DNA from: Asaia lannensis NBRC 102526
Lineage (GTDB): Bacteria; Pseudomonadota; Alphaproteobacteria; Acetobacterales; Acetobacteraceae
DNA: 57,281 bases
NCBI RefSeq assembly: GCF_024054035.1
Contig: NZ_JAMXQU010000014.1
Location: 1-57,281 of the forward strand
Direction: 5' to 3'
Of the stretch, positions 1,012-20,938 are shown piece after piece (position 1 is the stretch's first letter; each line of letters begins with the position of its first letter). The notes under the pieces are model-generated. The model was not told the DNA's origin. It did no database searches and worked only from the letters and a program-made list of their open reading frames with translations. The position numbers and the translations under genes were made by a program.

Positions 1012-1959
1012 ATGATGGACACGCTCGTATTTCGCCTCAAATTCAGGCAGCTCCTGTTGCTGCGTCAGATCAGTCTTGAGCCGTCACTGAACCGCGCGGC
1101 ACGGTCGCTCAACCTGTCGCAGCCTACGGCGTCGAAGCTGCTCCAGGATATGGAGACAGATCTGGGGGTGCAGCTTTTCGAGCGTCATGCGCATGGGTTG
1201 ACCCCGACACAGGCGGGACTGGTGGCGATACGCCATGCTGGTCAGATCCTGGCCGATCTCGGCCGGCTTCGGCATGATCTGCAGGCGGTCAGCAGAGGAT
1301 TGTCGGGCACGGTGAGCATCGGTGCCATAGGGGCAGCCTTGCATGACATTGTGACACCCGTTCTCGCCACGCTTGTCAGATCGCATCCCGATATCAGCGT
1401 GACACTGCAGGTCACCACAAGCGACGATCTGATGGAGATGCTCCAGTCGGGCCGGATCGATCTGGCTCTTGGCCGCCCGATGGACGGTATTGCCAGTGGT
1501 CTGCTGGATATCGAGGAGTTGTCGTCCGAGCCGCTTCTTGTCGTCGCGGGTGCGCGAAACGCGCTACACGACTCACCGGGACTGACGCTTGAGCAGCTCA
1601 GCCGGGAGCGCTGGATCGTACAGACAAGACCGAGCCCCATGCGGGTTGCACTTGAGCGCATATTCACATTGGCGCGACTTCCCGTGCCTGCTCACCCGAT
1701 TGAACTGTCTTCCATTCTCGCGACGATCGACCTGCTGACCCAGTCAGACATGCTCTCCGCCCTGCCGCGCTCGATCTATCGTCTTTTCGAACCGGCAGGA
1801 ATCATCAGGGAATTGCCGGTTTCTTTGCCCGATCTGATTGGTCCCTATCATCTGATGCGCATGCACGAGAGGGCGATGACCCCTGCCATCGCGTATCTTG
1901 CGAATGCGCTCAAACAGCAGGCTATCGGGTTATCCGATAACCCCATTCAGCAAGTCTGA
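1012..1959 (+). CDS. LysR-family transcriptional regulator
   Basis: 315 residues, the usual length for LysR regulators. The N-terminal winged helix-turn-helix spans about residues 20-75 (SLNRAARSLNLSQPTASKLL, then GVQLFERH and a TPTQAG turn). The rest is a periplasmic-binding-protein-like effector domain beginning near residue 95 (SGTVSIGAIGA). Two ATGs stand at 1012 and 1015; AGGAG at 991 is somewhat far upstream. The gene lies 68 bases upstream of the dehydrogenase-isomerase fusion in the same direction, unlike the common divergent LysR arrangement, so it may be the first gene of the operon and control its own transcript. The effector is probably the operon's sugar acid, sugar or a phosphorylated intermediate (inference). 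Confidence 0.9.
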   Translation: MMDTLVFRLKFRQLLLLRQISLEPSLNRAARSLNLSQPTASKLLQDMETDLGVQLFERHAHGLTPTQAGLVAIRHAGQILADLGRLRHDLQAVSRGLSGTVSIGAIGAALHDIVTPVLATLVRSHPDISVTLQVTTSDDLMEMLQSGRIDLALGRPMDGIASGLLDIEELSSEPLLVVAGARNALHDSPGLTLEQLSRERWIVQTRPSPMRVALERIFTLARLPVPAHPIELSSILATIDLLTQSDMLSALPRSIYRLFEPAGIIRELPVSLPDLIGPYHLMRMHERAMTPAIAYLANALKQQAIGLSDNPIQQV

Positions 1960-2027
1960 TCGACAAGCGCCCCAACGGATCCTTTTCTTGTCTGACCAAC
2001 AGGTAATGAGCAGGGTGACGCGTTATC

Positions 2028-4016
2028 ATGCATGTTCTCGTTCTAGGCGCGGCAGGGATGCTGGGCCGTAAACTGGCTGAGAGTTTTATGGGCGGACATG
2101 ATGGATCGTTTCCATCCATAGCCCGCCTTACCCTTGCCGATATCGTGGCGCCCCAGGTGCCACCCGGCGCCGATGGAGCGGTCTCAGGCGTTTCGGTCGA
2201 TCTTGCCATGGCCGGCGAGGCTGAACGGCTGATTGCGGAACGACCGGATATTATTTTCCATCTGGCAGCGATCGTCTCCGGGGCAGCAGAAAAGGATATG
2301 GCGCTCGGCTATCGCGTCAATCTCGATGCGACACGTGCATTGTTCGATGCCATCGCAAAAGCGCACGAGCAGGATGGCTACAAGCCAAGATTGGTGTTTG
2401 CTTCCTCTATCGGCGTCTTCGGTCGCCCGCTGCCTGACCTTATTCCCGACAGCCAGATCCCCACGCCCGAAAGCAGCTATGGCGTGCAGAAGGCGATGGT
2501 GGAGCTCCTGCTGACCGATTACGCGCGTCGGGGCATTTTCGATGGCGTGGCGCCGCGACTGCCCACGCTTTGCGTGCGTCCGGGTCGACCGAACGCAGCG
2601 GCATCCGGCTTCTTTTCCGGCATCATACGCGAACCGCTCAACGGTATGGAGGCCGTTCTGCCGGTGCCACGCAGCACGCGACACTGGCTGGCAAGCCCGC
2701 GTGCGGCGGTGCATGCCCTTCGTCATGCCGCAGTGCTCGATTACGAGAAGCTGCGCGGGCGTCCTGTTTTCACGCTGCCTGGCCTGAGTGTGACGGTTGA
2801 AGAGCAGATTGAGGCGTTGCGTGTCATTGCGGGCGATGGCGCCGTCTCCCTGATACGCGAGGAGCCCGATCCGTTCATCCAGCATTTTATTTCGAGCTGG
2901 CCCAAGGCATTCGATACGCACTGGGCCCTTTCTCTGGGTTTCGTCGCCGATCCCTCGTTCGCCGCCATGATCGAGGCCTATATCGAAGACGATCTGGATG
3001 GCCGACTGCCAGCGCATGAGGAGAGCAGGCCCGCACATGCGCAAAGCCAGCATGCGGTATTGCCGCAGACAGTCTCCCGACAGAGCCCGCCGAGATACAA
3101 CGCCAGGACCTGGCCGATTGCCGCTGCCATGATCCAGTATCCGGCCATCTTGCCAGATGGACGCTCGGTGCAGGATCAACCTGCCGAGGAATGGGCCGCA
3201 ACCCTGCGCGACGTCACAAGGGCCGGATTCACCGAGCTGGATCCGACAGATAGCTGGCTGCGCGTTGCCGATCTGAGCCCGGGGCGCCGTCGTGAATTCC
3301 TGTCCGTTTGCCGGGAAGCCGGACTGACGATACCAGCGATCTCGACATCACGCCGCTCGGTGATCGATCCGGACCCTGAAAAAGCCGATGCTTATCTCGC
3401 TTACATTCACCGTGTGATCGATACGGCGCCTGAATGCGGTGCCACCGAGATTGCCGTCGGTTTTGCCACGGCCCTCAATGACGCGCAGAAAAAGGCGCTC
3501 TGGTTCTGGACGGCGCAGGGCCATCGCGACCCTGATGACGCGAGCATCTGGAAAAAGGCTGTCTCCCGCATCCGGGAGCTTGCCGACCATGCGCAAAGTG
3601 TGGGCGTCACGCTCTCACTTGAAATGTATGAAGATACCTATCTCGGCACGGCTGAATCGAGCGTACGCTTCATAACGGATGTCGATCATCCTTCCTGTGG
3701 CATCAACGCGGATATAGGCAATCTCGTGCGTCTGCATCGTCCGGTCGAGCACTGGCACGGCATGATGAGCCAGCTCGCACCATTCCTGCGCTACTGGCAC
3801 GTCAAGAATTACCTGCGCACGGAGGACGCCACGACAGGGATGATCGTCACTGCGCCCGCCCCGATGGAACAAGGGGTGATCAGCTATCGCGCCGCGATCA
3901 ACATGGCGCTTGCCCACGGATACAACAGTCCTTTCCTCGTCGAGCATTATGGCGGTGACGGTCTGAGTGTGGCGGCCAGGAACCGGGACTATATCCGTGG
4001 AATCCTGCCGCTATGA
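2028..4016 (+). CDS. fusion: DenD-like sugar-acid dehydrogenase + xylose-isomerase-like TIM barrel
   Basis: A 662-residue two-domain protein. Residues 1-325 are an extended SDR/epimerase-fold dehydrogenase with an NAD site GAAGMLG (7-13) and a catalytic Y151-x3-K155 in SSYGVQKA. Segments around 180-215 (CVRPGRPNAAASGFFSGI, REPLNGMEAVLPV) match D-erythronate dehydrogenase DenD as I remember it. A hydrophilic linker (330-360) leads to a TIM barrel (365-662) of the xylose isomerase-like superfamily, with likely metal ligands E532 (LEMYED), D562 (NADIGN), H591 (YWHVKNY) and E639 (VEHYGGDG). DenD oxidises D-erythronate to 2-oxotetronate, which OtnI isomerises in known pathways; here a different isomerase-type domain is attached to the same chain. 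The barrel could instead act on a sugar or tetrulose phosphate. The stop overlaps the next start as ATGA. The domain calls are firm; the substrates are inferred. Confidence 0.85.
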   Translation: MHVLVLGAAGMLGRKLAESFMGGHDGSFPSIARLTLADIVAPQVPPGADGAVSGVSVDLAMAGEAERLIAERPDIIFHLAAIVSGAAEKDMALGYRVNLDATRALFDAIAKAHEQDGYKPRLVFASSIGVFGRPLPDLIPDSQIPTPESSYGVQKAMVELLLTDYARRGIFDGVAPRLPTLCVRPGRPNAAASGFFSGIIREPLNGMEAVLPVPRSTRHWLASPRAAVHALRHAAVLDYEKLRGRPVFTLPGLSVTVEEQIEALRVIAGDGAVSLIREEPDPFIQHFISSWPKAFDTHWALSLGFVADPSFAAMIEAYIEDDLDGRLPAHEESRPAHAQSQHAVLPQTVSRQSPPRYNARTWPIAAAMIQYPAILPDGRSVQDQPAEEWAATLRDVTRAGFTELDPTDSWLRVADLSPGRRREFLSVCREAGLTIPAISTSRRSVIDPDPEKADAYLAYIHRVIDTAPECGATEIAVGFATALNDAQKKALWFWTAQGHRDPDDASIWKKAVSRIRELADHAQSVGVTLSLEMYEDTYLGTAESSVRFITDVDHPSCGINADIGNLVRLHRPVEHWHGMMSQLAPFLRYWHVKNYLRTEDATTGMIVTAPAPMEQGVISYRAAINMALAHGYNSPFLVEHYGGDGLSVAARNRDYIRGILPL

Positions 4017-5023
4017 GTCCGCTGTCATCTCCCGGGGCTCCGCAGTCTGCAGTTACCCGCCTCACCCGTCTCGACACGAAACTCGCCAGAATGCGCGAGG
4101 GAAGAGACGAACCGACCGATTTCATACTGGCCGATGCCAAGGATGCAGATATGGCGGGCGGTCTTTCGGGGCTTGGTCGCAATCGTGAAACAGGGCGCCT
4201 CAACACGCTTGGCGAATTCGATAGCGCGATCCGCGCGATAATCCGTCAGGATGTTGTCGATATCGTTCTGACATCGGTGTCGACCTTGGGGCGACTTGCG
4301 CGGCAGGGCGTTTTCGATGCGGGGGCCATACGTCAGGCGGTCAGATTCAACGACACCAGCGATCTGTGGCGTATTCGTGGGGCAGATTACGGGCGGCAAA
4401 GCTCTGTTCCATTCGCTACGGCGCGTCTTGCGCTTTCCCCCACCGATCTCGGGCTTTATTCCATGACGTTCAGCGGAGAAGCCCGCGCAGATGCCGAAGC
4501 ACTTGAGCGGTATCGTGTGTTCCGTGAAGCGGCGCAGTCGCATGGGATCAGCCATTTTCTCGAGGTCTTCAATCCCGTCTCTTTGCATCTCGATCCGAGC
4601 GATTACGGATCTTTTCTCAACGATATGGTGAGCCGCGCCCTTTCCGGCATGGAAACGGGAGAGCGCCCCGTTTTTCTGAAGCTGGCTTTCAACGGGTGCG
4701 ATTCATTCGAGGAATTCTGTCGTTACGATCCATCTCTTGTCGTCGGGATCATGGGGGGCAGTAGCGGCACGACACGCGACTGTATGGAGCTGCTGCATCA
4801 GGCGCAGATGAGCGGCGCACGGGCTGCACTGTTCGGCCGCAAGATACTGGATGCAGAAGACCCCCCTACCATGGTCAGGGTCATGCGCGCTGTGACGGAC
4901 AGACGTCTGACGCCGAAGGAGGCCGTCTCGTTTTATCATGATCTGCTCGACGACGCCGGCGTGACGCCGGACAGACCCAGACAGGACGATCAGCAGATCA
5001 CACAGGAGATTCTGAGGCAGTGA
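4013..5023 (+). CDS. class-I-aldolase-like TIM-barrel protein (DeoC/LacD/FbaB type)
   Basis: 336 residues with the look of a Schiff-base aldolase barrel. FILADAKDADMA (37-48) resembles a first strand, FLKLAFNG (221-228) offers K223 as the lysine candidate, and GIMGGSSGTT (245-254) followed by ALFGRKI (272-278) resembles the phosphate-binding end of the DeoC, LacD and DhnA-type families. No signal peptide. It overlaps the fusion gene by four bases (ATGA), so the two are translationally coupled. Next to an isomerase domain and a ketose kinase, the simplest role is cleaving a ketose phosphate to a triose phosphate plus an aldehyde (inference). A hairpin with stem CTGGAAA at 5097-5103 lies in the 145-base gap before the kinase. 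The family is remote and I cannot name an exact orthologue. Confidence 0.7.
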   Translation: MSPLSSPGAPQSAVTRLTRLDTKLARMREGRDEPTDFILADAKDADMAGGLSGLGRNRETGRLNTLGEFDSAIRAIIRQDVVDIVLTSVSTLGRLARQGVFDAGAIRQAVRFNDTSDLWRIRGADYGRQSSVPFATARLALSPTDLGLYSMTFSGEARADAEALERYRVFREAAQSHGISHFLEVFNPVSLHLDPSDYGSFLNDMVSRALSGMETGERPVFLKLAFNGCDSFEEFCRYDPSLVVGIMGGSSGTTRDCMELLHQAQMSGARAALFGRKILDAEDPPTMVRVMRAVTDRRLTPKEAVSFYHDLLDDAGVTPDRPRQDDQQITQEILRQ

Positions 5024-5168
5024 CGATGCTGCCTCCCTTCTGCTGGGACACTGCCAGTTGCGCCGGTCGCGTGCTGGGAGAACCTGGCCCGCGGATCTGG
5101 AAACGAGGCTCTCCGCTCCGCTTTCCAGCCGTCCACGATACGCACAACGCTGAAACGGAATAGATGAT

Positions 5169-6896
5169 ATGGTCGATATTTGCGGCAATGAAGACGATTT
5201 CGCGACACATGGTTTGCGTGCCTTCAACCATATTTTTCAGGATATCGTGCGCCCTGTGCGCAGTGGGGCTCTAAGAGCGGATCCGGGTCCTGAAGGCAAG
5301 GTGACCGTGCTGGTGGGCGGCGGCTCGGGCCATTATCCGACCTTCTGCGGATTTGTCGGACCGGGATTTGCCGATGCTGTCGTTATGGGCGGTATCTTTG
5401 CATCGCCCTCCATACAGGCGGTGGCCGAAATAGGTCGGCTCGCCCATCGGGGGGGCGGTATTGTCATGGGCTTCGGCAACTATGCCGGTGACAATCTGAA
5501 TTTCGGCATTGCGGCAGAGCGTCTGCGTGCCGAGGGGATCGATACGCGCATCGTGGTGACCACAGATGATGTCGCGAGTGCGCCCCCCGAGGACCGCGCA
5601 CGCCGCCGCGGCGTTGCGGGCGATATCATCGTATTCAAGATCATGGGGGCGGCGGCCGATGCCGGCTACGATATCGACGCTGTCGAAGCCGTTTCGCGTA
5701 AGGCCAACGACCATACACGCTCTTTCGGAATCGCGTTCGACGGCTGTGCGTTGCCCGGGGAGGCCGAAAAGATCTTCAGCGTGCCGGAGGGACGCATGGC
5801 GCTCGGTCTGGGAATACACGGTGAACCGGGGATAGAAGAGCGTGCCCTAGCCACGCCTGACGCGATTGCTGCGGAGTTGTACCAGCGCGTCATGGCCGAG
5901 TGCCCGTCCCAGGCGCGACGTCTGGCCGTGCTTCTGAACGGTGCAGGAGCGACGGCGACAGAAGAACTCTTCGTGTTGTGGAACGAACTTGAGAGCCTTT
6001 TCGAGCGCGATGGGATCACCTTGATCGCTCCGCTCGTGGGCTCCTATGCGACCAGTCTCGATATGTATGGATGTTCCCTGACGATCACATGGCTCGACGA
6101 CGAGCTCGAACGTTTCTGGCGCGCGCCTGTGAATGCGCCTGTGCTGTGTCGTCATGCGGTCAAAGGCGACTGGGTCCCCGCGTCACGACAGGAAATTGCG
6201 GTTCGCCCGGTCGACTATGCCCCTGCCGGGACGCCTCTCGGCGCAAAATCCGGCAAATGCATTGCCCGCGCGATGGCGCGCCTGTCACATACGATGGCAG
6301 AGAACGAGGCAATGCTTGGCCGTATCGATGCGATTGCAGGCGATGGCGACCACGGACAGGGGATGGCGCGCGGGGCCCGCGCGGCTGCAAGAGCGGCAGA
6401 TCTCGCCATGGCGGCTGGTGGCGGCGCGCGAACCGTTATGGAAGCGGCCGCAGATGCATGGGGCGATCGCGCCGGGGGGACGTCGGGCGCGCTATGGGGC
6501 GAGGCACTTTTTGCGTTTGCCCGTCATCTGGATAATCACTCGGCCATCGATGCGCGTCAGGTCGTTGACGGCATTGTCGCTGCGGCGCAGCGCATCCGCG
6601 ACATCGGCAAGGCCGAGCCGGGCGACAAAACGCTGGTGGACGCCTTGGTGCCCTTTGTCGCCTGTCTGCAAGACCGCACCGAGGAAGATACGCCCGGCAC
6701 GAAAACGTTTGGACCGGTATGGCGAAAGGCCGTGGCCGAAGCGCATCGCGGCGCCGAGGCAACCAAGGCATTCGCTGCCAGAAAAGGTCGCGCGAAAACC
6801 CATGGCGATCACAGCATGGGCTACCCCGATCCGGGTGCGCTCTCATTCGCGCTCGCGATGGACTCACTGACCGAACTCGTCGGTGGGCTCGATTAA
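5169..6896 (+). CDS. DhaK-DhaL fusion kinase (dihydroxyacetone/erythrulose kinase family)
   Basis: 575 residues. The N-terminal DhaK domain (about 1-330) has VGGGSGHYP (49-57), the GNYAGD motif (103-108) and H217 in LGIHGEPG, the histidine that binds the ketone substrate as a hemiaminal. The C-terminal DhaL ATP domain (about 360-575) carries the magnesium-binding GDGDHGQG (391-398) and DRAGGTSGALWG. Single-chain ATP-dependent enzymes of this size include dihydroxyacetone kinases and the L- and D-erythrulose kinases (LerK, DerK) of tetritol pathways. The operon context points to a tetrulose or other short ketose rather than glycerol catabolism. A paralogue of the same layout lies at 13101-14822. 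Substrate is inferred; kinase family is certain. Confidence 0.9.
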   Translation: MVDICGNEDDFATHGLRAFNHIFQDIVRPVRSGALRADPGPEGKVTVLVGGGSGHYPTFCGFVGPGFADAVVMGGIFASPSIQAVAEIGRLAHRGGGIVMGFGNYAGDNLNFGIAAERLRAEGIDTRIVVTTDDVASAPPEDRARRRGVAGDIIVFKIMGAAADAGYDIDAVEAVSRKANDHTRSFGIAFDGCALPGEAEKIFSVPEGRMALGLGIHGEPGIEERALATPDAIAAELYQRVMAECPSQARRLAVLLNGAGATATEELFVLWNELESLFERDGITLIAPLVGSYATSLDMYGCSLTITWLDDELERFWRAPVNAPVLCRHAVKGDWVPASRQEIAVRPVDYAPAGTPLGAKSGKCIARAMARLSHTMAENEAMLGRIDAIAGDGDHGQGMARGARAAARAADLAMAAGGGARTVMEAAADAWGDRAGGTSGALWGEALFAFARHLDNHSAIDARQVVDGIVAAAQRIRDIGKAEPGDKTLVDALVPFVACLQDRTEEDTPGTKTFGPVWRKAVAEAHRGAEATKAFAARKGRAKTHGDHSMGYPDPGALSFALAMDSLTELVGGLD

Positions 6897-6959
6897 AGCA
6901 TGCGTCGTCACGTATCGGGCAAGTGGCGACGGAGATAACGGGGGAGCAAGGGAGAAATC

Positions 6960-7721
6960 ATGCTTCTTGAAGGAAAGATTTTCGCGATTACCGGCGGGGC
7001 ATCCGGCATAGGGAAGGCTGCAGCGCTTGAGGCCGCACGACAGGGGGCGGATGTGGCAATTACCGACCTCGTGTCAGCCGAGGCCGTGCAGCAACTCCTG
7101 CGGGAAATCGGGGATCTCGGTCGCCGATCGCTCTACTACCGCGGCGATGTTGCCTTGGCGGAGACCGCATTGGGTTTCATGGCTGCCATCGAAAGCCAAC
7201 TGGGCGGGCTGGATGTTTTTGTCAGCAATGCCGGAATCTGCCCGTTTCACGCCTTTCTCGACCTGCCGGCTGAAACGCTGCGTCAGACGGTGGAGGTCAA
7301 TCTGCTCGGGGCCTATTTCATGGTGCAGGAAGCCGCCAGATTTATGGTGAGGCAGGGGCGCGGCGGTGCGATTATTGCGGTCTCATCCATTTCGGCGCTC
7401 GTAGGCGGCGCCTATCAGACCCATTACACGCCCACCAAGGCCGGGGTTCATTCGCTCATGCAATCCACTGCAATCGCCCTTGGCCCTCACGGCATCAGGT
7501 GCAACTCGGTATTACCCGGCACCATACGCACCCCGATCAACGCCGACGATCTTGCCGATGAAACGAAGGCGCAGGGGTTGATCGATCGTATCCCGCTCGG
7601 CAGGCTGGGAGAGCCCGAAGATCTGGCTGGCCCGATCGTGTTTCTGGGCTCTTCCCTGGCCGGTTACGTGACTGGAGCCGCGTTGCTCGTCGATGGGGGT
7701 TGCTTCGTGAATCTTCAGTAG
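6960..7721 (+). CDS. SDR-family dehydrogenase resembling L-rhamnose 1-dehydrogenase
   Basis: 253 residues, classical short-chain dehydrogenase: cofactor site TGGASGIG (11-18), NAG (near 90), catalytic Ser in SSISALVG and Y-x3-K in HYTPTKAG. The stretches NAGICPFHAFLDLP and VTGAALLVDGGCFVNLQ strongly recall NAD(P)-dependent L-rhamnose 1-dehydrogenase as I remember it. No other rhamnose-pathway gene is in the window, so the enzyme may act on another aldose, a tetrose or the aldehyde left by the aldolase. GGGAGAAATC before the ATG is a good ribosome binding site. It is 63 bases after the kinase and is probably the last gene of the operon. Confidence 0.85.
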   Translation: MLLEGKIFAITGGASGIGKAAALEAARQGADVAITDLVSAEAVQQLLREIGDLGRRSLYYRGDVALAETALGFMAAIESQLGGLDVFVSNAGICPFHAFLDLPAETLRQTVEVNLLGAYFMVQEAARFMVRQGRGGAIIAVSSISALVGGAYQTHYTPTKAGVHSLMQSTAIALGPHGIRCNSVLPGTIRTPINADDLADETKAQGLIDRIPLGRLGEPEDLAGPIVFLGSSLAGYVTGAALLVDGGCFVNLQ

Positions 7722-13100: not shown

Positions 13101-14822
13101 TTATTTGACCGATAGCGCTGAGAGCTGTTCGCCCACCACACGCGCGCACAGAGCCATGGAAATGGCCCCTGCATCCGGATGCCCCTTGCTTCTCTCGCCA
13201 TGCGTTCTGGCGCGCCCCAAACGTGGCAGAAGGTCTTTTGTCGCTTCTGCGGCAAGGGTCGCGTCCTGAGCGGCGTTCGTCCAGGCTTTTGCCACACTGT
13301 CTCCCCGTCTCAATCCGCTCTCGAAGCCTGCGACGAGCGGTGAAAGCGCGTCCATGAGTGTCTTGTCGCCGGGACGGGCCTTGCCGAGTGCCGTGATCTT
13401 GTCTTTCGCGCGCGTAAGACCGAGCAGAAGTCCCTGCGCGTCCGGCCTGGCTGAATCGTCGAAAGCAGTGCTGAACGCGAAGAGCCCCGCTCCCCAGAGT
13501 GCGCCGGATGTTCCGCCTGCACGGTCGGCCCAGGCATCGGCCGCAGCGGCAAGAACGCTTGCGGGGCCAGCCCCGGCTTCCACGGCGGCAAGCGCTGCAC
13601 GTGCTGCGGCAGCGGCACCACGGGCCATGCCCTGTCCGTGATCGCCATCCCCGGCATGAGCGTCGATCTGACCGAGTTCGGGTTCGGCCTTCGTAAGGGC
13701 TTCAGAGAGCTTGACCATGACATTCGCAACGCAACGTCCGCCCTGTCGGCCTGCTTCGGTCAGCGATTTCATATAGACAGCCTGAGCCTCATCCGGCACG
13801 GACAGGCTGTGGTCGACCGGGGCGTTCATAGCCCCACGGGTTATGGCCGCCGTCTCGACGGGGGCACACCAGAAGCGCTCCAGCTCCTCGTCGAGCCAGG
13901 TCAGGGTGAGAGAGCACCCTGCCATATCGAGACTGGTGATATATTCGCCAGCCAGCGGTGCCACGACCGTGTATCCGGCATTTTCGAGACAGGGGATAAT
14001 TGCTTCCCACAGAACGAAAAGCTCTTCGTATTTCGTGCAGCCCAGACCGTTCAGCAGCGCGGTGATACGCGACCCGCCATTGGCTGGCGCCTCTTTCAGC
14101 AGGCGCTCGCACAGTGTCGCGGCCAGTTCTTCGGGGCGCATGAGATCGCGCTCGTCGATGCCCTGTTCGCCATGTACGCCAAGACCGAGTGCGACGCGTT
14201 GATCGGGAACATGAAAAAGCTTTTCGTGTTCTCCGGGAAGGGTGCAGCCATCGAACGCAACACCGAAGGATCGTGTGCGGTCGTTTGCACGCCTTCCTAT
14301 CGCTTCGACTTCATCGAGCGTGAGCCCGGCCTCGGCAGCCGCACCGATGATCTTGAATACCGGCAGATCGCCAGCCGTGCCGCGTCGCCTCGATGCCTCA
14401 TCTGCAGGGGCACTTGCGATATCGTCCGTCGTGGCGATCATGCGCGTGTCGATCCCCTCCGCGCGCAGGCGCTCAGCTGCGATGCTGAAATTGAGGACGT
14501 CCCCGGCGTAGTTTCCGTAGCCCAGAATGACGCCACCCCCGAGATGCGCCTCGCGCGCAATGCGAAGGATGGCCTGCGTCGACGGCGAGGCGAAGACATC
14601 CCCTGCCACTGAAGCATCGGCAAAGCCGGAACCGACATAGCCGTTGAACGCGGGAAAATGACCCGAGCCACCGCCAACGACCAGTGTAACCTTGCCCTGC
14701 TTACCCGGTCGGCTGCGCAAGACGCCGCCTCTCACAGGCTGGACGATATGCCGGTACAGGCTTGCAAAACCACGCAGGGCTGAGGTTGCGAAATTCTCGG
14801 CATCGCCACAGATCTTGGTCAT
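13101..14822 (-). CDS. DhaK-DhaL fusion kinase, probable erythrulose kinase (LerK/DerK type)
   Basis: 573 residues from the ATG at 14822 (AAGGA eight bases upstream); a longer reading to 14987 would run back into the permease gene and adds a non-homologous Ser-rich tail. DhaK domain: VGGGSGHFP (49-57), GNYAGD (103-108) and substrate-binding H217 (LGVHGEQG). DhaL domain: GDGDHGQG (391-398). It has the same layout as the kinase at 5169. It is the last gene of the tetritol operon with a ribose-type ABC importer, an RpiB-type isomerase and a TIM-type isomerase. That set matches known L- and D-erythrulose pathways, in which this kinase family makes erythrulose phosphate. Kinase family is firm; substrate is inferred from neighbours. 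Confidence 0.9.
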   Translation of the reverse strand: MTKICGDAENFATSALRGFASLYRHIVQPVRGGVLRSRPGKQGKVTLVVGGGSGHFPAFNGYVGSGFADASVAGDVFASPSTQAILRIAREAHLGGGVILGYGNYAGDVLNFSIAAERLRAEGIDTRMIATTDDIASAPADEASRRRGTAGDLPVFKIIGAAAEAGLTLDEVEAIGRRANDRTRSFGVAFDGCTLPGEHEKLFHVPDQRVALGLGVHGEQGIDERDLMRPEELAATLCERLLKEAPANGGSRITALLNGLGCTKYEELFVLWEAIIPCLENAGYTVVAPLAGEYITSLDMAGCSLTLTWLDEELERFWCAPVETAAITRGAMNAPVDHSLSVPDEAQAVYMKSLTEAGRQGGRCVANVMVKLSEALTKAEPELGQIDAHAGDGDHGQGMARGAAAAARAALAAVEAGAGPASVLAAAADAWADRAGGTSGALWGAGLFAFSTAFDDSARPDAQGLLLGLTRAKDKITALGKARPGDKTLMDALSPLVAGFESGLRRGDSVAKAWTNAAQDATLAAEATKDLLPRLGRARTHGERSKGHPDAGAISMALCARVVGEQLSALSVK

Positions 14823-14883
14823 GGATAAGGGTCCTTGGTGGTTGCTGTCGGTCCGGAAAAAAGTCCCGGAAATGGGGAGTCCG

Positions 14884-15906
14884 TCAGGACTCCCGGTTGA
14901 AATAGCGTCGGGCGACTGAGTCGAATGAGATCGCTGCGACGACGATTGCGCCACTGACGATGGACTGCCAGTAGGGCGATATTCCAAAGAGCACGATGAC
15001 GTTCTCGATAATGCCGATGATCACCGCACCTAGCACGGCGCCAAACGGGCTGCCGAGACCGCCTGTCGTGGCGACGCCGCCGATCACTGCAGCGGCGATA
15101 GGGGCGAGCACCCAGGTATCGCCGATTGAAGGCTGCGCCGTACCAAGACGTGCGACCATGACGATACCGGCGAGAGCAGAGAGAAAGCCCGCCGTCGCAA
15201 AAGCGCAGACGCGGATGGCATCGACCCGGATGCCGAGCATACGGGCCGCCGCATTATTGCTGCCTATTGCATAGACGTAGCGTCCGAGCGGCGTGCGAAG
15301 CATGACGAACGATACGACCGCAAGACAGGCCAGAAGGATAATGAAAGGCACCGGCAGGCCCATCACCATGCCGCGCCCGAGAAAGGAAATGTCGCTCGGT
15401 ATGCCTGTAATGGCCACGCCCTTTGTCAGGACGAGATTGGCCCCTCCATAAACGCCCGCCATACCGATCGTGAGCACGAGCGAGTGCAGGCGCAGACGTG
15501 TAATGAGCAGACCATTGAGAAGACCGCACCCGGTGCCGAGAGCCAGGCACAGAATGAGGGAAAGCCATGGATTGAGCCCGACCTGTACCATCAGCAGGCC
15601 CCCGGCAACGCCTGCCAGACCGCCAATGGCGCCGACGGACAGATCGAGCTCGCCCAGGATCATCAGAATGGCCTGACCGATCGTTACCAGCCCGACGAAG
15701 GCCAGAGATCGCGCGATGATCTTCATGTTGAAGGCGGTGAGGAAGTGCGAGGAGAGCGAGCACGAGAGGATGAAGATCACTGCCAGTGCCACGATTACGC
15801 CGCATAGAGGATTGGCAGCGAGCGTTTTCAGGCGCTGTGCGACACCGGGCGCGGCCAGAGCGGCCGAACCGTCGGGTTGTACGGGAGGAAGCTGGTCATG
15901 CGACAT
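14884..15906 (-). CDS. ribose-type ABC importer permease
   Basis: 340 residues from the ATG at 15906 (MSHDQLPPV), eight to ten hydrophobic segments, and the family hallmarks GELDLSVGAIGGLAG and AIGSNNAAARMLGI found in RbsC-type permeases. A longer frame reaches 15966, but the chosen start overlaps the ATPase gene by 11 bases, which suits coupled translation. It forms the membrane channel of the importer with the ATPase at 15896 and the binding protein at 17419. Position and partners match the erythritol transporter EryEFG of Rhizobium leguminosarum as I recall it. Confidence 0.9.
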   Translation of the reverse strand: MSHDQLPPVQPDGSAALAAPGVAQRLKTLAANPLCGVIVALAVIFILSCSLSSHFLTAFNMKIIARSLAFVGLVTIGQAILMILGELDLSVGAIGGLAGVAGGLLMVQVGLNPWLSLILCLALGTGCGLLNGLLITRLRLHSLVLTIGMAGVYGGANLVLTKGVAITGIPSDISFLGRGMVMGLPVPFIILLACLAVVSFVMLRTPLGRYVYAIGSNNAAARMLGIRVDAIRVCAFATAGFLSALAGIVMVARLGTAQPSIGDTWVLAPIAAAVIGGVATTGGLGSPFGAVLGAVIIGIIENVIVLFGISPYWQSIVSGAIVVAAISFDSVARRYFNRES

Positions 15907-17401
15907 GTCTGGTCTCCGGTGAGCCGATGATCGAGGCGACCAGCGTGCTGACATCCGTCTTGTCATGATCGAAGGAGCCGTTGATGCGGCCGGAATAAAG
16001 GGTCACGATACGCGTCGCGCAGCGCTGCAACTCGTTCATCTCGGAAGAGACGAGAATTATCCCGACCCCTTCCTCGGCCAGCTGCTGCATGATCCGGTAG
16101 ATCTGGAATTTGGTGCCGATATCGATGCCCTTGGTGGGCTCGTCGAAAATGAGCAGACGCGGCTTTCTGGCCATGGCCCGACCGATGATCGCCTTCTGCT
16201 GGTTGCCGCCGGAGAGAAACATGATCTTTTTGGCGGCCGAGGACGTGCGTACATCGAACTGGCGTATGATGTTCTGCACGATCTCCCGCTCTCTGGCTGT
16301 GGAGATCATTCCCGCATGGCTTATGTCTTCCGTTACCGCCAGAGCGATATTCTCGCGCACGCTGAGCAGAGGGAAAATTCCGTGATGCTTGCGCTCCTCT
16401 GACAGATAGATCATTCCGGCTTTGACAGCCTTGTCCGGCCGGTTCGGCGGAATGATTTTGCCGTCCAGCGTGACGCGGCCTTCAACGGCTTTCCTGAACC
16501 CGAACATGGCCTGCATGATTTCAGACCGCCCTGCGCCGACAAGCCCTGCAAAGCCGAGAATTTCACCCCGTTTCAGCTCGAAGGAGATGTCGTTAAATCC
16601 GGCACCGGAGAGATGCTCGACGCTGAGGATCGTCTCGCCCGTGCGTGCTGACGCTGCTGGCTGGAACTGCTCATCGAGTTTGACCGTATTGCCCGACATG
16701 AGGCGTATCAGCTCGTTCTCCGTCATGTCCTGCATGGGGAAACTCCCCACGCTGCGTCCATTGCGCAACACGGTGACCGTATCGCCCAGCGAAAAGATTT
16801 CTTCCATCTTGTGCGAGACGAAAACGATGGCCACGCCCCTGTCGCGCAAATCATGCACGATACGAAAGAGCTGCTCGGTTTCCCGTGCAGTCAGGGAGGA
16901 TGTGGGTTCATCGAGAATCATGACCCCGAAATCCTCCTGCGTTGCGGCACGCGCAATCTGCAGGAGTTGCTGGTCGGGAACGCTAATCTCGGCCACCTTC
17001 TGGTCAGGCCGGGCTTGAATGCCAAAGCGGGCGATATAATCGCGTGCTTTTTGCTCCATGGCCTTTTCGGAGACCGTGATCGTGCCGAACCCGGAGCGGG
17101 CGAAGGGCATGAACATGTTCTCTGCGACGGTCAGATAGGGAAAGAGGTTGAGTTCCTGAGGCACGTACGCGACGCGGCGGAACAGCCGTTGGTCGTTCAG
17201 GGCGTCGAGGTCATCGATGACCAGCGATCCCTCATCGGGTTTGACCAGACCGGACAGGGTCTTGATCAGGGTAGATTTCCCTGCCCCGTTCTCCCCGGCA
17301 AGGATATGCACCTTGCCGGGTTCGAGGGTCAGGTCGATATGGTCGAGCGCCACGACGCCTGGATAGGTCTTTCGTATGCCCGTCGCCTTGAGAAGGACCA
17401 T
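15896..17401 (-). CDS. ribose-type ABC importer ATPase (two fused ABC domains)
   Basis: 501 residues from the ATG at 17401 (MVLLKATGIRKTYPG), the normal length for RbsA/MglA-type ATPases with two ABC domains in tandem. The first domain has Walker A GENGAGKST and Walker B VMILDEPTSSL, but its signature is the unusual ISVPDQQ (proline where glycine is usual). The second has a degenerate Walker A (GLVGAGRSE), as usual for the family, and an intact signature LSGGNQQ with LLIFDEPTKGID. It powers uptake with the permease (11-bp overlap) and starts 17 bases after the binding-protein stop. Confidence 0.92.
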   Translation of the reverse strand: MVLLKATGIRKTYPGVVALDHIDLTLEPGKVHILAGENGAGKSTLIKTLSGLVKPDEGSLVIDDLDALNDQRLFRRVAYVPQELNLFPYLTVAENMFMPFARSGFGTITVSEKAMEQKARDYIARFGIQARPDQKVAEISVPDQQLLQIARAATQEDFGVMILDEPTSSLTARETEQLFRIVHDLRDRGVAIVFVSHKMEEIFSLGDTVTVLRNGRSVGSFPMQDMTENELIRLMSGNTVKLDEQFQPAASARTGETILSVEHLSGAGFNDISFELKRGEILGFAGLVGAGRSEIMQAMFGFRKAVEGRVTLDGKIIPPNRPDKAVKAGMIYLSEERKHHGIFPLLSVRENIALAVTEDISHAGMISTAREREIVQNIIRQFDVRTSSAAKKIMFLSGGNQQKAIIGRAMARKPRLLIFDEPTKGIDIGTKFQIYRIMQQLAEEGVGIILVSSEMNELQRCATRIVTLYSGRINGSFDHDKTDVSTLVASIIGSPETRHVA

Positions 17402-17418
17402 CGCCCTGTTCCCATCGC

Positions 17419-18345
17419 TTATTTCGAAAGCGTTGCTTTCGTGATGATATCGATACCCGTGTCTATATTCTTGGGCGTCTGCTGCCCCAGGGCTTTTTGC
17501 CATGCAGCAATCACTGCCCAGTAGCCCTGCATCTCAGGGCGGCTGGATGCGGAGGAATCAACCACGCCATCCTTGATGAGCTGGAGCATGTCGCTGAGGT
17601 TGTCGAGCCCGACCTCCTGAACCTTGCCGACCTTGTCGCTTTCACGAATGGCCTGACCGATACCGACCGGGCCTGCGGCATCGCAGGCGACCCATCCACC
17701 CAGGTCGGGATGCGCCTGCATGATGGCCGAGGCCTGTTTCTGTGCCGTTTCGATGCTGTCGTTATCGATGCCGGTCGCCACGACCTTCATGTCGGGATAT
17801 TTGGCAAAGACCTTGAGTTCGCATCGCGCGCGCAGAGCATGATTGGGGGCTGTCGGCACACCCATCATGATAGCGACCTCACCTTTGTGGTTGAGCAGTT
17901 TCGCGAGCCTTTCGGCGGCGATGGTGCCCTGCTCGCAAAAATCAGCCCCGACCGCCGTGATATTCATTCCCTCGGGCGGGAGTGAATCGAACACCGTCAT
18001 GGGGATTTTCTCGTCGACGGCTTCCTGCATGGTCGAGCGATTGCCCTTCTCGTCGAGAAGGTCGAGAATCAGCCCGTCAGGGTGCGTGGCAATAGCCCGT
18101 TCGATGATATCGTTCTGGGTCGAGACGTCAGCCGTCTGGGGCGCGCGATACTCCACCGTGATGGAGCGGCCGGTTGCCTTGCTGAGAAGCTGGGCAGCAG
18201 CCTGTGCGCCATTATTGGCCTTGTCAAACCAGGGATGAACGGCTTTCGGGATCATGACAAACCGCATGGGCCCGTTATCCGCGGCCGCATGAGCGGTCAT
18301 CGGAGCCAGGAACAGGGCGGCAGTTGCGAGCAGAGCTTTTTTCAT
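17419..18345 (-). CDS. periplasmic sugar/polyol-binding protein of the ABC importer
   Basis: 308 residues with a clear signal peptide (MKKALLATAALFLAPMTAHA, cut after AHA). The mature part is a type I periplasmic binding protein like RbsB (FVMIPKAVHPWFDKANNGAQAAA; DGLILDLLDEKG; VACDAAGPVGIGQAI). It captures the substrate and delivers it to the permease; the surrounding genes point to erythritol or another tetritol. It follows the RpiB-type gene by 31 bases and precedes the ATPase, so it belongs to the same operon. Confidence 0.92.
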   Translation of the reverse strand: MKKALLATAALFLAPMTAHAAADNGPMRFVMIPKAVHPWFDKANNGAQAAAQLLSKATGRSITVEYRAPQTADVSTQNDIIERAIATHPDGLILDLLDEKGNRSTMQEAVDEKIPMTVFDSLPPEGMNITAVGADFCEQGTIAAERLAKLLNHKGEVAIMMGVPTAPNHALRARCELKVFAKYPDMKVVATGIDNDSIETAQKQASAIMQAHPDLGGWVACDAAGPVGIGQAIRESDKVGKVQEVGLDNLSDMLQLIKDGVVDSSASSRPEMQGYWAVIAAWQKALGQQTPKNIDTGIDIITKATLSK

Positions 18346-18376: not shown

Positions 18377-18844
18377 TTACTTGCAGGAATTGGGCGAGTA
18401 TTTGCGGTCGAGGGCGTTGATGCCGTCAACGTTCTTCGCCGAGGCGCTGGCCGGATCGAATTTCTTGGCCAGGAACGCGTCCACAATTGTCTTTGCCAGC
18501 TCGGAACCGACAACACGTGCGCCCAGCGTGATGATATGGGCGTTATTGGACAGCGCCGCGCGCTCGGCCGAATAGACGTCATGGGCCTGGGCCGCGCGGA
18601 TGCCCGGGATCTTGTTGGCTGAAATGGCAACGCCAATGCCCGTGCCGCAGCAGAGGATGCCACGCTCGTACTCACCCGATAGAATTGCGTGGCCGACGCG
18701 CTCGCTCAGTTCGGAATAGAGTTCGCTCTTGGCATCGACCGGGCGCGAAAGATCGACGGCATCGACACCTTTGGCCTTGAGGTGGGCCACGATCTGCTGG
18801 GCCAGACCTTCACCGGCGCTATCGCCACCAACTGCAATTTTCAT
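18377..18844 (-). CDS. eryI: RpiB-family isomerase, probable D-erythrose-4-phosphate isomerase EryI
   Basis: 155 residues, the RpiB/LacAB fold. Visible family residues: D8 (VGGDSAG), [14 protein letters not shown] (65-78) with the active-site cysteine, AHD (87-89) and SNNAH (99-103). RpiB itself interconverts ribose and ribulose 5-phosphates. The paralogue EryI/DerI in erythritol clusters turns D-erythrulose 4-phosphate into D-erythrose 4-phosphate, which enters the pentose phosphate pathway. The position between eryH, a DeoR gene and the importer supports that assignment. RpiB is the safer name if the context is ignored. Confidence 0.88.
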
Positions 18845-18877: not shown

Positions 18878-19705
18878 TCAGAAAGGCGCGCGTTGCGCGG
18901 GAGGTTGCACGGTATCCAGTGTGGCTATGTGCAAATTGATCCCGGCATCGAGCATCCGGTTCTTCTGGCTGTCGGACACACCTGAATCGGTGATCACGAC
19001 ATCGAAGTCAGAAAGGTTGGCCAGGCGATTGAGCGCCGTGACATCGAATTTCTGACTGTCGATCATCAGGATACGACGATCGACGATCTCCATGAGTGCC
19101 ATCTTGCATTTGACGATCTCCTGCTCCTGATGAAAGGCGCCGAGATCGCGCACAGCCGAGACGGACATGAACAGGGTATTGGCACGCAGCGACTTGGTGC
19201 CCTGTTCGCAGAGGATACCCAGAAACGCATCGAAGCGCGGGTGGTATTTCCCGCCGAGGCAGATCAGGCTTATGTCGCGTGCTCCGGCAATCTGCGTGGC
19301 AATGCCCATGCTGTTTGTGAGCACGGTCAGTGGCATTCCCGAAGGCAGGTTTTCCGACAGCACGCGTGACGTCGTCGAGTCATCGAGCGCGATGATATCA
19401 CCTGCCTTGATGAATTCCGCAGCAACACGCGCAATCGCCTGCTTCTCACGCGAGGCGCGTCTCATGCGATGCACGACGCTCGTTTCCATGACGCCGCTGG
19501 CGAGCATGGTCACGCCACCATGGACCTTGCGCACCAGTCCCTGCTCGGAGAGTGCGTGCAGGTCGCGATGGATCGTCATGCGGCTTGTCGAGAAGCGATC
19601 GACCAGTTCCTCGATCTGCGCGCCGCCATTTTCGAGCACATAATCGAGGATCTCGCGGCGACGTGCCGAGACCGCCTTGCTCTCGACTCCGGTCGCGCCG
19701 CTCAT
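18878..19705 (-). CDS. DeoR-family transcriptional regulator (EryR-like)
   Basis: 275 residues from the ATG at 19705, which overlaps the eryH stop as ATGA. N-terminal winged helix-turn-helix (ARRREILDYVLENGG, then SRMTIHRDLHAL and KVHGG) followed by a sugar-phosphate isomerase-like sensor domain (ALDDSTTSRVL, SLICLGGKYHPRFDAFLG). DeoR regulators are usually repressors released by a phosphorylated sugar. In Rhizobium a DeoR gene (eryR) sits beside tpiB and rpiB, the same arrangement as here. The target is probably the operon itself through the palindrome at 20504. A second DeoR regulator lies at 24586. Confidence 0.9.
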   Translation of the reverse strand: MSGATGVESKAVSARRREILDYVLENGGAQIEELVDRFSTSRMTIHRDLHALSEQGLVRKVHGGVTMLASGVMETSVVHRMRRASREKQAIARVAAEFIKAGDIIALDDSTTSRVLSENLPSGMPLTVLTNSMGIATQIAGARDISLICLGGKYHPRFDAFLGILCEQGTKSLRANTLFMSVSAVRDLGAFHQEQEIVKCKMALMEIVDRRILMIDSQKFDVTALNRLANLSDFDVVITDSGVSDSQKNRMLDAGINLHIATLDTVQPPAQRAPF

Positions 19706-20466
19706 GATGCGACCGACCGGATGATGGCTTCCAGCCCTGCCGGATTCCATGCTGAACGACCGATAAACACGCCATCGACATCGCGCAGCGCGGTATAGGC
19801 GGCAGCGTTCGCCAGAGAAACGCTGCCGCCATAAAGCAGAGGCACACGCTTTGCTGCGTCTGTCCCGACCAGTTCGGCAAGGACCGCGCGCAGTCTCGTA
19901 TGGGCGATATCGACAAATTCGGGTTCTGCTGCCGTACCGTTTGAACCGATCGCCCAGACGGGCTCGTAAGCGATAAGAACCGTTGCGATTTCGGCCTCGT
20001 TCAGACCGTAAAGAGCCATTTTGGTCTGGCGTGCGAGTGTTTCATGTGTGACGCCGAACGCATATTCGTCCGCGCTGTCACCGATGCAGATGAGCGGACG
20101 CAGGCCGTAGCGGATTGCGGCGCGGACCTTCAGATTGACTGTGATATCCGTCTCGCTGAAATGCTCACGTCGTTCGGAATGCCCCAGTTCGATCAGATCG
20201 GCACCGCATTCGCGTACCATCTGCGGTGAGATTTCTCCGGTCCAGGCGCCCTCGTCCTCCCAGTGCATGTTCTGGGCGCCGACATGCCAGCGTGAGCCCT
20301 GTAACCGCGCCGCGACACTTTCCAGCGACGTGAAAGGCGGAATGATAAACGGTGTGATCGAAGCCGGAACGTCCATATCTGCAATCTGTGTGGCAGCATC
20401 GCGCGAGGCGCCCGGCCCCTTGTTCATCTTCCAGCTTGTTCCGACCCAGAGAGATTTTGAGGACAT
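19702..20466 (-). CDS. eryH: triosephosphate-isomerase-family enzyme, probable tetrulose-phosphate isomerase EryH
   Basis: 254 residues with the complete TIM active site: K13 (SWKMNK), H96 (GHSERR), E168 (AYEPVWAIG) and the phosphate-binding LLYGGSVS. Divergence from housekeeping TpiA and the location next to EryI, EryA and EryB indicate EryH (TpiA2/LerI), which moves the carbonyl of a phosphorylated tetrulose to give D-erythrulose 4-phosphate. It is the first gene of the eryH-deoR-eryI-importer-kinase operon. A true glycolytic TpiA cannot be fully excluded without a tree. Confidence 0.87.
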   Translation of the reverse strand: MSSKSLWVGTSWKMNKGPGASRDAATQIADMDVPASITPFIIPPFTSLESVAARLQGSRWHVGAQNMHWEDEGAWTGEISPQMVRECGADLIELGHSERREHFSETDITVNLKVRAAIRYGLRPLICIGDSADEYAFGVTHETLARQTKMALYGLNEAEIATVLIAYEPVWAIGSNGTAAEPEFVDIAHTRLRAVLAELVGTDAAKRVPLLYGGSVSLANAAAYTALRDVDGVFIGRSAWNPAGLEAIIRSVAS

Positions 20467-20503
20467 CGCTTTGTCTTTCTTCGCACTACCGGCACGTTCA
20501 TCA

Positions 20504-20519
20504 TAACGTATGAATGTTA
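20504..20519. promoter_or_regulatory. candidate operator upstream of eryH
   Basis: TAACGT-atga-ATGTTA, a 16-bp imperfect palindrome in an AT-rich region 38 bases upstream of the eryH start. Read on the minus strand it begins TAACATTCATACG; the divergent eryA promoter region has a similar TAACATTTACG (24286-24296). Binding by one of the two DeoR regulators is an inference. Confidence 0.4.
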
Positions 20520-20908: not shown

Positions 20909-20938
20909 TTGCTCATGTCGCGCTCGCCGGGTCCGGTG

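Follow-up and report, generated by a model that had tools for sequence, protein, structure and literature searches.

The operon and its recurrence in Asaia

The DNA analysed here, the 57,281-nucleotide stretch of Asaia lannensis NBRC 102526 at positions 1-57,281 of the forward strand of contig NZ_JAMXQU010000014.1 (GCF_024054035.1; hereafter the window), carries an operon of five genes with the following features:

1012..1959, + strand: LysR-type regulator, first gene of the operon (315 aa; Pfam HTH_1 and LysR_substrate)
2028..4016, + strand: DenD-TIM fusion gene (662 aa)
2028..3011, + strand: DenD-like NAD-dependent dehydrogenase half of the fusion, residues about 1-328 (NF043036; PDB 2hrz)
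3078..4016, + strand: TIM-barrel half of the fusion (Pfam AP_endonuc_2; PDB 5tnv, E 1.7e-93)
4013..5023, + strand: aldolase-like protein, designated ALD (336 aa; predicted fold)
4679..4681, + strand: codon of ALD Lys223, candidate Schiff-base lysine (invariant; aligned with LsrF K203)
5169..6896, + strand: DhaK-DhaL-type single-chain ketose kinase (575 aa; Dak1 and Dak2; PRK14479)
6960..7721, + strand: SDR of the L-rhamnose 1-dehydrogenase family (253 aa; NF053807; best PDB match 7b81)

The earlier note had described five same-strand genes with an ATGA overlap and short gaps, and all five open reading frames lie on the + strand where it placed them. The LysR and fusion genes are separated by 68 bp, the fusion and ALD genes overlap by 4 bp (ATGA), and the remaining gaps are 145 bp (ALD to DhaK) and 63 bp (DhaK to SDR).

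The genome-neighbourhood comparison proposed at that time was carried out, and the gene set was found to recur; the refuting outcome named in the earlier note, a lack of co-occurrence in other genomes, did not arise. The order LysR, DenD, TIM, ALD, DhaK, SDR, followed by DedA and an ATP-grasp-like gene, is identical in six of nine genomes of the genus, and the arrangement is therefore not a matter of chance. The five operon genes are real and their arrangement is conserved. The DenD-TIM frame is unbroken in four of the six operon-bearing genomes, and broken in the drafts G582 and G583. In three of the six operons, though not in that of the window, a gene for an amidohydrolase-type lactonase (fuconolactonase-like, 93-101 bits against a cut-off of 400) lies between the kinase and SDR genes. 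A LysR gene upstream of DenD was also found in other acetic acid bacteria.

ALD and the neighbouring polyol cluster

The new element in the operon is the aldolase-like gene ALD. Its family is annotated as 'hypothetical protein' in all eight annotated stretches viewed. The protein has no Pfam match at E 0.001, and gives only weak DhnA/LsrF-type matches among the NCBIfam models (best 29.3 bits, cut-off 241). A Foldseek search with its AlphaFold2 model (pLDDT 92.8) returned LsrF (E 3.2e-11; TM 0.61 by query), DHAP-bound ADH synthase (E 3.7e-10) and archaeal class I FBA, and the predicted fold is that of a DHAP-binding class I aldolase. Lys223, which is K212 in the numbering of alignments A1 and A2, is aligned with K203 of LsrF, which we take to be the catalytic lysine of that enzyme; it is invariant in the ALD-family sequences of the two alignments (19/19 and 41/41) and lies on beta 6 (strand 211-213) of the predicted model. 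ALD is thereby like the LsrF/DhnA class I aldolases in predicted fold, beta 6 lysine and aligned GG and GR motifs, but differs from them in that the sequence similarity is confined to the C-terminal third and no family model scores above its cut-off.

The ALD family includes at least 578 related stretches in one scan, and a tree of 55 sequences spans four phyla. Among 80 relatives fetched, 74 have a kinase gene (PfkB, FGGY or DhaK) within 6.5 kb and six have none found nearby; PfkB lies directly downstream of ALD in 56, and an FGGY-GlpD-ALD set is present in 15. Further arrangements include ALD-DhaK-DhaL in Lichenicola, GlpD-ALD-aldehyde dehydrogenase on a Vibrio plasmid, and one relative beside a divergent ADP-dependent glucokinase/phosphofructokinase gene. 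As most relatives accompany PfkB kinases, the specificity of the family as a whole cannot be for tetroses alone. This variety of neighbouring kinases, the ADP-dependent type included, is in keeping with ALD being a general ketose-1-phosphate aldolase in Asaia, in which case the C4-C6 sugars considered here would not include the true substrate of the operon; that explanation is quite improbable, and it leaves the alternation of ALD with a polyol cluster, described below, unaccounted for.

The earlier note was sound on the operon genes but did not extend to the polyol cluster found at 13-25 kb of the window, 5 kb from the operon. It is this cluster that gives the best indication of how long the carbon chain is. 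Its features are:

13101..14906, - strand: second DhaK-DhaL-type kinase, at the cluster end (Dak1 and Dak2; 54% identical to the operon kinase)
14884..18345, - strand: sugar ABC transporter, with permease, ATPase and binding protein (Pfam BPD_transp_2, ABC_tran, Peripla_BP_4)
18377..18844, - strand: RpiB-family isomerase, close to D-erythrulose-4-phosphate isomerase (NF051858; Pfam LacAB_rpiB)
18878..19750, - strand: DeoR-type regulator (Pfam DeoRC and HTH_DeoR)
19702..20466, - strand: triose-phosphate-isomerase (TPI) paralogue, the second copy in the genome (other PF00121 copy at G000:C3)
20467..20938, - strand: gap, occupied by the ALD gene in relatives (no ALD remnant by tblastn)
20939..22651, - strand: GlpD-like polyol-phosphate dehydrogenase (29% to rhizobial EryB)
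22691..24232, - strand: FGGY kinase (29% to rhizobial EryA)
24580..25401, + strand: second DeoR-type regulator, divergent from the cluster

At 29% identity each, the FGGY and GlpD-like proteins are not taken as orthologues of EryA and EryB, and the polyol itself is therefore putative. DerI (NF051858) is the highest-scoring model for the RpiB protein, though at 233.4 bits the score falls below the cut-off of 240. Operons of the eryDABC type occur alongside the FGGY-GlpD pair in three genomes (G022, G048 and G079).

In acetic acid bacteria, ALD is also found within this polyol cluster, together with FGGY, GlpD-like, TPI, RpiB and DhaK genes. Exactly one ALD copy is present in eight of the nine Asaia genomes, and the ninth has none. 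The single copy is in the operon in six genomes, none of which has a cluster copy, and in the polyol cluster in two, which retain only LysR-TIM-SDR of the operon. The presence of one ALD per genome, in either the operon or the cluster, suggests that the two share a substrate. ALD is not obligatory with the FGGY-GlpD pair: of the 14 acetic acid bacteria outside Asaia that carry the pair, five have no ALD.

In the cluster, ALD has the GlpD-like gene on one side and the TPI paralogue on the other, the position held by the TIM-barrel protein EryC in Rhizobium johnstonii pRL12; EryC is missing from 11 of the 12 acetic acid bacteria examined for it. ALD might on these grounds be an erythrulose-1-phosphate 3-epimerase, a non-homologous replacement of EryC with no lyase activity. 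Against this, FGGY-GlpD-ALD occurs with neither TPI nor RpiB in the stretches viewed of Shinella (L125), Agrobacterium (L122) and Carnimonas (L091), an aldehyde dehydrogenase gene comes after one GlpD-ALD set, the stretches of G008 and G041 contain FGGY-GlpD-TPI-RpiB but lack ALD as well as EryC, and G022 carries both ALD and EryC. An epimerase role is accordingly regarded as very unlikely.

A candidate route through erythrulose-1-phosphate

The dehydrogenase half of the fusion passes the NCBIfam model for D-erythronate dehydrogenase (NF043036; 349.2 bits, cut-off 325). The TIM-barrel half has no BLASTP match at E 1e-3 to either E. coli OtnI (YgbM) or R. johnstonii EryC, and the NCBIfam model that exists for OtnI is not among its seven NCBIfam matches up to E 1. 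It is a candidate 3-oxo-acid decarboxylase or isomerase yielding a ketose. Stand-alone homologues of this domain often adjoin DhaK kinases, some with TPI/RpiB paralogues; TIM, DhaK and RpiB and/or TPI paralogues are found together at four of 14 further TIM loci (L164, L167, L168, L169), and a DenD-TIM-DhaK set is present in Sinorhizobium BG8. The operon kinase, with Dak1 and Dak2 in one chain, passes PRK14479 (645, cut-off 492) and falls below the cut-off for ATP-dependent glycerone kinase (TIGR02361; 337.1 against 574.95 bits). The SDR passes the L-rhamnose 1-dehydrogenase model Lra1 (NF053807; 415.5 bits, cut-off 400) and is a candidate aldose 1-dehydrogenase.

From the genes, their order, the predicted fold, the conserved lysine and the co-occurrence, we infer the reactions and the substrate as follows. 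The SDR would oxidise an aldose at C1, with the lactonase acting next in some Asaia, and the DenD domain would oxidise the aldonate at C2. Rearrangement or isomerisation and decarboxylation by the TIM-barrel domain would give erythrulose, which the DhaK-type kinase would convert to erythrulose-1-phosphate and ALD, as a class I aldolase, would cleave to DHAP and formaldehyde. Alternatively, the TPI and RpiB paralogues of the cluster may convert erythrulose-1-phosphate to D-erythrose-4-phosphate. On stereochemical grounds, D-apionate or L-lyxonate would be the best candidate among the C5 acids. The operon would thus serve the catabolism of a C5 sugar or sugar acid, with erythrulose-1-phosphate as the point of entry into central metabolism, a tentative assignment to which we give somewhat less than an even chance.

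The earlier note had offered two readings. In the first, an isomerase makes a ketose that is phosphorylated and then cleaved by the aldolase to triose phosphate and an aldehyde; the ALD fold, the conserved lysine and the kinase neighbourhood agree with it, but the isomerase is putative: the TIM domain could not be matched by sequence to OtnI or EryC and may be a decarboxylase. In the second, 3-oxotetronate is decarboxylated to dihydroxyacetone; the DenD match agrees with it, but ALD is left without a task and the alternation with the cluster without an explanation. The first reading is the better, with the substrate putative.

In its fuller form, the second reading is a tetronate route lacking OtnK, in which the fusion would convert D-erythronate through 3-oxotetronate to CO2 and dihydroxyacetone, the kinase would form DHAP, and ALD would be a passenger or serve another ketose. 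The earlier statement that OtnK is lacking in the gene set extends to whole genomes, as PF07005 (DUF1537, OtnK) was found in none of four Asaia genomes searched while G123 and the E. coli control were positive. Dihydroxyacetone is accepted by kinases of the DhaK family. This route is nevertheless unlikely, as it gives no role to ALD despite the 4 bp overlap with the fusion, the TIM half of the fusion has no BLASTP match to OtnI, and TIM-DhaK occurs together with TPI and RpiB paralogues.

The SDR match and the fuconolactonase-like gene would also suit L-rhamnose, in which case the SDR and lactonase would yield L-rhamnonate, DenD and TIM a 5-deoxypentulose, and the kinase, acting at C1, the substrate for cleavage by ALD to DHAP and acetaldehyde, which acetic acid bacteria handle easily. 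No L-rhamnonate dehydratase is among the operon genes by their Pfam and NCBIfam assignments. Against an L-rhamnose route stand the TPI/RpiB-type clusters with which TIM and ALD co-occur, and the two Asaia with a reduced operon, which keep TIM and SDR while their sole ALD and a DhaK belong to the polyol cluster. Such a route is thus unlikely.

Several points also count against the route through erythrulose-1-phosphate. Among those given above are the FGGY-GlpD pairs without ALD, the low identity of the cluster proteins to EryA and EryB, and the ALD relatives that accompany PfkB kinases or have no kinase found nearby. Cleavage by ALD would release toxic formaldehyde and run in the retro-aldol direction, the harder of the two. 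The SDR and DenD also fit L-rhamnonate or erythronate, and in the two Asaia whose ALD is in the cluster the reduced operon has no DenD to feed TIM. A PdxA-type enzyme is used in three of four rhizobial and Paracoccus TIM-DhaK loci viewed. Finally, the cluster RpiB scores under the DerI cut-off, and the RpiB proteins of L164 and L169 score higher with the actinobacterial-type RpiB model than with DerI.

Relation to known systems

The D-apionate pathway proceeds via 3-oxoisoapionate and L-erythrulose with ApnO, OiaC and LerK. By description, not by sequence, the operon resembles it in the putative steps of oxidation and TIM-barrel decarboxylation to L-erythrulose and in the DhaK-type kinase, but differs in that its dehydrogenase is of the DenD type and forms one protein with the TIM barrel, and in having ALD. 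With the D-erythronate/L-threonate pathway (DenD or LtnD, OtnI, OtnK, OtnC), it shares the DenD-family dehydrogenase, but the genome is without OtnK, the TIM half is not OtnI-like, and a DhaK kinase and an aldolase are present instead. The cluster is like the rhizobial erythritol locus (eryABC, tpiB, rpiB; R. johnstonii pRL12) in its FGGY, GlpD-like, TPI and RpiB genes and their similar order, but differs in the low identity to EryA/EryB, the added DhaK, and the ALD of relatives in the place of EryC.

A variant for D-apiose that is phosphorylative appears, with EC names, in a passage of PMC11747546, and tetrose uptake and kinase proteins are called unreported in a passage of PMC12780249. The EuMP cycle, as outlined in parts of PMC10733421, was engineered in E. 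coli with promiscuous FucA or RhaD, and combines an erythrulose-1-phosphate aldolase with isomerases of the LerI and DerI types. We propose that ALD and the TPI/RpiB paralogues have these activities; in their case the cluster is natural and the aldolase family has a predicted class I fold. The authors ask in the same source whether such an aldolase co-occurs naturally with LerI and DerI isomerases, and the route proposed for Asaia, if true, bears on this printed question. The further idea that ALD is a dedicated erythrulose-1-phosphate aldolase, forming with the cluster TPI and RpiB a natural counterpart of the EuMP module that in some acetic acid bacteria even runs from formaldehyde and DHAP to D-erythrose-4-phosphate, is highly improbable.

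ALD belongs to a family with no assigned function and may fill the place of a gene still missing for a reaction that has long been known: should it split erythrulose-1-phosphate, EC 4.1.2.2 would have a gene in a physiological setting. The family is widespread, and knowing what one member does would shed light on many loci. For Asaia, whose members are known from flowers and insects, the operon would, if the proposal is true, represent a new sugar-acid route.

Organisation and conservation of the operon in Asaia

The five ORFs between 1012 and 7721 were found at the positions and on the single strand reported in the earlier note, with intergenic distances of 68, -4, 145 and 63 bp. The observation of an operon is thus confirmed, and in a stronger form than first reported. 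Scans for promoters and terminators gave nothing above chance level. The genes, in order, are as follows.

1012-7721, forward strand, operon of five genes
Gene 1: LysR regulator
Gene 2: 662-residue fusion of a D-erythronate-dehydrogenase-like domain (DenD) and an AP_endonuc_2 TIM barrel (TIM)
Gene 3, 4013-5023: aldolase-like protein of 336 residues (ALD) without a Pfam match
Gene 4: single-chain DhaK-DhaL kinase
Gene 5: SDR of the L-rhamnose 1-dehydrogenase family

Among the matches listed, the nearest named relatives of ALD were those of Asaia sp. W19 and A. prunellae. A search of nine same-genus genomes with ALD (comparison genomes carry G numbers, fetched loci L numbers) found a single copy in eight; G580, which is 88% complete, had neither ALD nor a GlpD-like match at E 1e-100. 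Loci L038 and L039 were taken to be those of G584 and G583 and counted once; among other such pairs, L043, L049, L058 and L060 probably correspond to G603, G638, G607 and G009. ALD lies within the operon in six of the eight ALD-bearing Asaia (this genome, G149, G477, G582, G583 and G584), which share the order LysR-DenD-TIM-ALD-DhaK-SDR-DedA-ATP-grasp. DenD and TIM are joined in frame in four of the six, and three (G477, G582 and G584) include a gene for an amidohydrolase lactonase between the kinase and the SDR. In G085 and G581, only LysR-TIM-SDR remains of the operon, and ALD is found instead in the nearby polyol cluster.

The operon is followed at 7907-9713 by genes for a DedA/VTT membrane protein and an ATP-grasp-like protein, which overlap by 8 bp in the window; the pair was present in all eight Asaia stretches viewed, including those with the reduced operon. 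The end of the window beside the operon (1-1000) has 46% GC and a minus-strand ORF of 124 residues without a Pfam match. At the other end (55743-57281), GC content falls to 38% after a tRNA-Glu gene, against ~59% in most of the window; this stretch includes an ORF without a Pfam match and is possibly a tRNA-linked island. In the his gene cluster, one ORF (52687-54033, forward strand) encodes both a GNAT acetyltransferase (residues 48-145) and HisA (203-432), and looks like a gene fusion.

The polyol cluster as the second location of ALD

The polyol cluster encodes the following proteins.

13.1-25.4 kb, mostly on the strand opposite to the operon
Second DhaK-DhaL kinase
Sugar ABC transporter
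RpiB-family isomerase, with D-erythrulose-4-phosphate isomerase (DerI) as best model at 233.4 bits, below the cut-off of 240
DeoR regulator
Triose-phosphate-isomerase (TPI) paralogue, with another copy elsewhere in the genome
GlpD-like dehydrogenase
FGGY kinase
Second DeoR regulator, encoded divergently

In G085 and G581, ALD is flanked by the GlpD-like gene and the TPI paralogue; it was absent from that position in all six Asaia with ALD in the operon. A decayed copy in the gap at 20467-20938 was rejected, as tblastn detected no remnant.

The GlpD-like protein had matches in 19 of 299 family genomes at E 1e-150, five of them Asaia. ALD is part of the cluster in nine of the 14 others (G009, G022, G060, G135, G474, G603, G607, G638 and G662). 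The remaining five (G008, G012, G041, G048 and G079) had no ALD in the fetched stretch and none genome-wide at E 1e-10, G012 and G041 being drafts of 86-90% completeness. Hence, ALD is not obligatory for the polyol cluster, and the ALD-free clusters count against a reading with a single route. Of 13 named loci of the FGGY-GlpD-ALD-TPI type, nine have RpiB within 6.5 kb, and the four from Gluconobacter (L040-L043) had none in the stretch; conversely, G008 and G041 carry FGGY-GlpD-TPI-RpiB without ALD. ALD and the isomerases could therefore serve as alternatives for the further conversion of one ketose phosphate, yet most clusters carry both. A search of 385 class genomes with the RpiB family was of no help in placing the cluster, with only four genomes matched at E 1e-45.

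The erythritol (ery) locus of R. johnstonii has the order FGGY-GlpD-TIM barrel (EryC)-regulators-TPI-RpiB. The Asaia RpiB and TPI are 59% and 47% identical to their counterparts there. As FGGY and GlpD are each just 29% identical to the rhizobial EryA and EryB, identity of the polyol cluster with the ery locus was rejected. The names used for R. johnstonii follow general knowledge of the locus and the gene order in PMC3599248. Three acetic acid bacteria (G022, G048 and G079) have both the FGGY-GlpD pair and an operon of the eryDABC type. EryC was missing from 11 of the 12 acetic acid bacteria tested and present in G022 alone, in a search that recovered the positive control record. Replacement of EryC by ALD was attractive at first, ALD occupying the EryC position, and was set aside as the main reading; it is weakened by genomes with neither protein in the cluster and by one with both.

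Predicted fold, gene neighbourhoods and phylogeny of ALD

ALD was modelled as a TIM barrel with a mean pLDDT of 92.8 (AlphaFold2, 41 sequences). The Foldseek matches of the model, at 11-16% identity, included LsrF, an archaeal DHAP-bound ADH synthase, an archaeal class I FBA and tagatose-bisphosphate aldolase. A profile search with ALD also recovered LsrF, over the C-terminal part only. The invariant K212 of the ALD alignment (Lys223 of the ORF) was aligned by hhalign (probability 84%) with LsrF K203, which we take to be the catalytic residue.

Gene neighbourhoods were compared for the best 80 of at least 578 relatives, drawn from named genomes. A PfkB, FGGY or DhaK kinase gene lies within 6.5 kb of ALD in 74 of these, on the same strand in 73, and a PfkB gene is directly downstream in 56; no kinase gene was found within this distance in six (L096, L100, L101, L102, L114 and L115). 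A GlpD-like gene is nearby in 15. The annotated plasmids viewed label ALD a 'hypothetical protein', and place it beside PfkB, in GlpD-FGGY-transporter sets, beside DhaK and DhaL, or between GlpD and an aldehyde dehydrogenase; in two annotated plasmid stretches, it had no co-directional partner. A set of ABC transporter, ALD and PfkB kinase recurs in Alphaproteobacteria (L053, L063, L121, L123 and others). ALD is quite probably a class I ketose-phosphate aldolase. Among the best-ranked literature matches, no functional assignment of the family was found.

In a tree of 55 ALD sequences, the polyol-cluster and operon copies of acetic acid bacteria, together with Carnimonas, form one clade of 20 rows (100/99), with the PfkB-linked copies and two GlpD-FGGY-linked rhizobial copies on the opposite side. 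The copies from Asaia operons group together (100/98), with Carnimonas, and not the polyol-cluster copies of Asaia, as their sister. As judged by this placement, the alternation of ALD between operon and cluster looks like differential gain and loss and not a simple move.

The TIM half and a candidate pathway

The TIM half of the fusion is close to PDB 5tnv; assignment as OtnI or EryC was rejected, as it had no BLASTP hit to either at E 1e-3. Among 289 class genomes, this genome alone matched at E 1e-50. Relatives were found in 93 plasmid records and in 17 of 200 family genomes at 23 places, of which 19 were looked at. Besides the fusion, this genome encodes DenD-MFS-TIM as a second, unfused set, and the Ameyamaea-like G009 (L022) has LysR-DenD-MFS-TIM-ALD-DhaK. 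Excluding L022 and the Asaia operons, DenD is upstream of TIM in nine of 14 stretches (L157-L170). In four of the 14, a DhaK kinase adjoins TIM, accompanied by a TPI and/or RpiB paralogue and by a 3HCDH-type dehydrogenase of ~321 residues, located as follows.

L164, 13759-14730
L167, 6431-7396
L168, 5999-6964
L169, 6522-7487

This dehydrogenase may be the D-apionate oxidoisomerase, an identity that would fix the substrate of these loci. The RpiB proteins of L164 and L169 scored higher as TIGR02133 RpiB than as DerI. Two ORFs beside TIM in L168, of 593 and 332 residues, had no match and are probably spurious. A DhaK kinase also comes after TIM in each of four plasmid stretches that were viewed; three of these encode a PdxA-like enzyme and a tripartite tricarboxylate transporter, and one has DenD. 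Such a PdxA-like/transporter/TIM/DhaK set is found on Sinorhizobium, Shinella and Paracoccus plasmids (L118 at 4666-11683, L119 and L244), and is a sugar-acid pathway that has no name in those annotations. That DhaK, TPI and RpiB paralogues accompany TIM repeatedly suggests a four-carbon ketose, short of proof.

In one reading of the earlier note, an isomerase forms a ketose, which is phosphorylated by the DhaK-type kinase and cleaved by the aldolase. This reading is supported in part: the predicted fold, the lysine and the neighbouring kinase genes favour the aldolase step, and no support was found for the isomerase step, the TIM half being unlike OtnI and EryC and possibly a decarboxylase. 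In the pathway preferred here, the SDR, with the lactonase where present, would form an aldonate, DenD would oxidise it at C2, and the TIM domain would yield a ketose with one carbon fewer. This ketose would be phosphorylated by the DhaK kinase, and the ketose-1-phosphate cleaved by ALD. Were the ketose erythrulose, this cleavage would give DHAP and formaldehyde (EC 4.1.2.2). A glutathione-type formaldehyde dehydrogenase scored over the cut-off in 7 of 7 acetic acid bacteria tested versus 3 of 14 control genomes, which is compatible with this model but not specific to it. By our reasoning, DenD and the SDR would meet one and the same configuration at C2 and C3 in L-lyxonate, D-apionate, L-rhamnonate and D-erythronate, so the sequence does not decide the substrate. 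The erythrulose model as a whole is offered as a possibility that we consider somewhat doubtful.

Among the matches listed for EC 4.1.2.2 by name, the relevant one was PMC10733421. According to this paper, the activity was described in the 1950s, a part in the breakdown of erythritol was proposed for it in Propionibacterium pentosaceum and Sinorhizobium meliloti, and its co-occurrence with the isomerases is of interest. PMC4437456 states that an erythritol pathway could not be pieced together for P. freudenreichii.

The chief new point is the aldolase family itself, together with the alternation of its one copy between two nearby clusters in Asaia.
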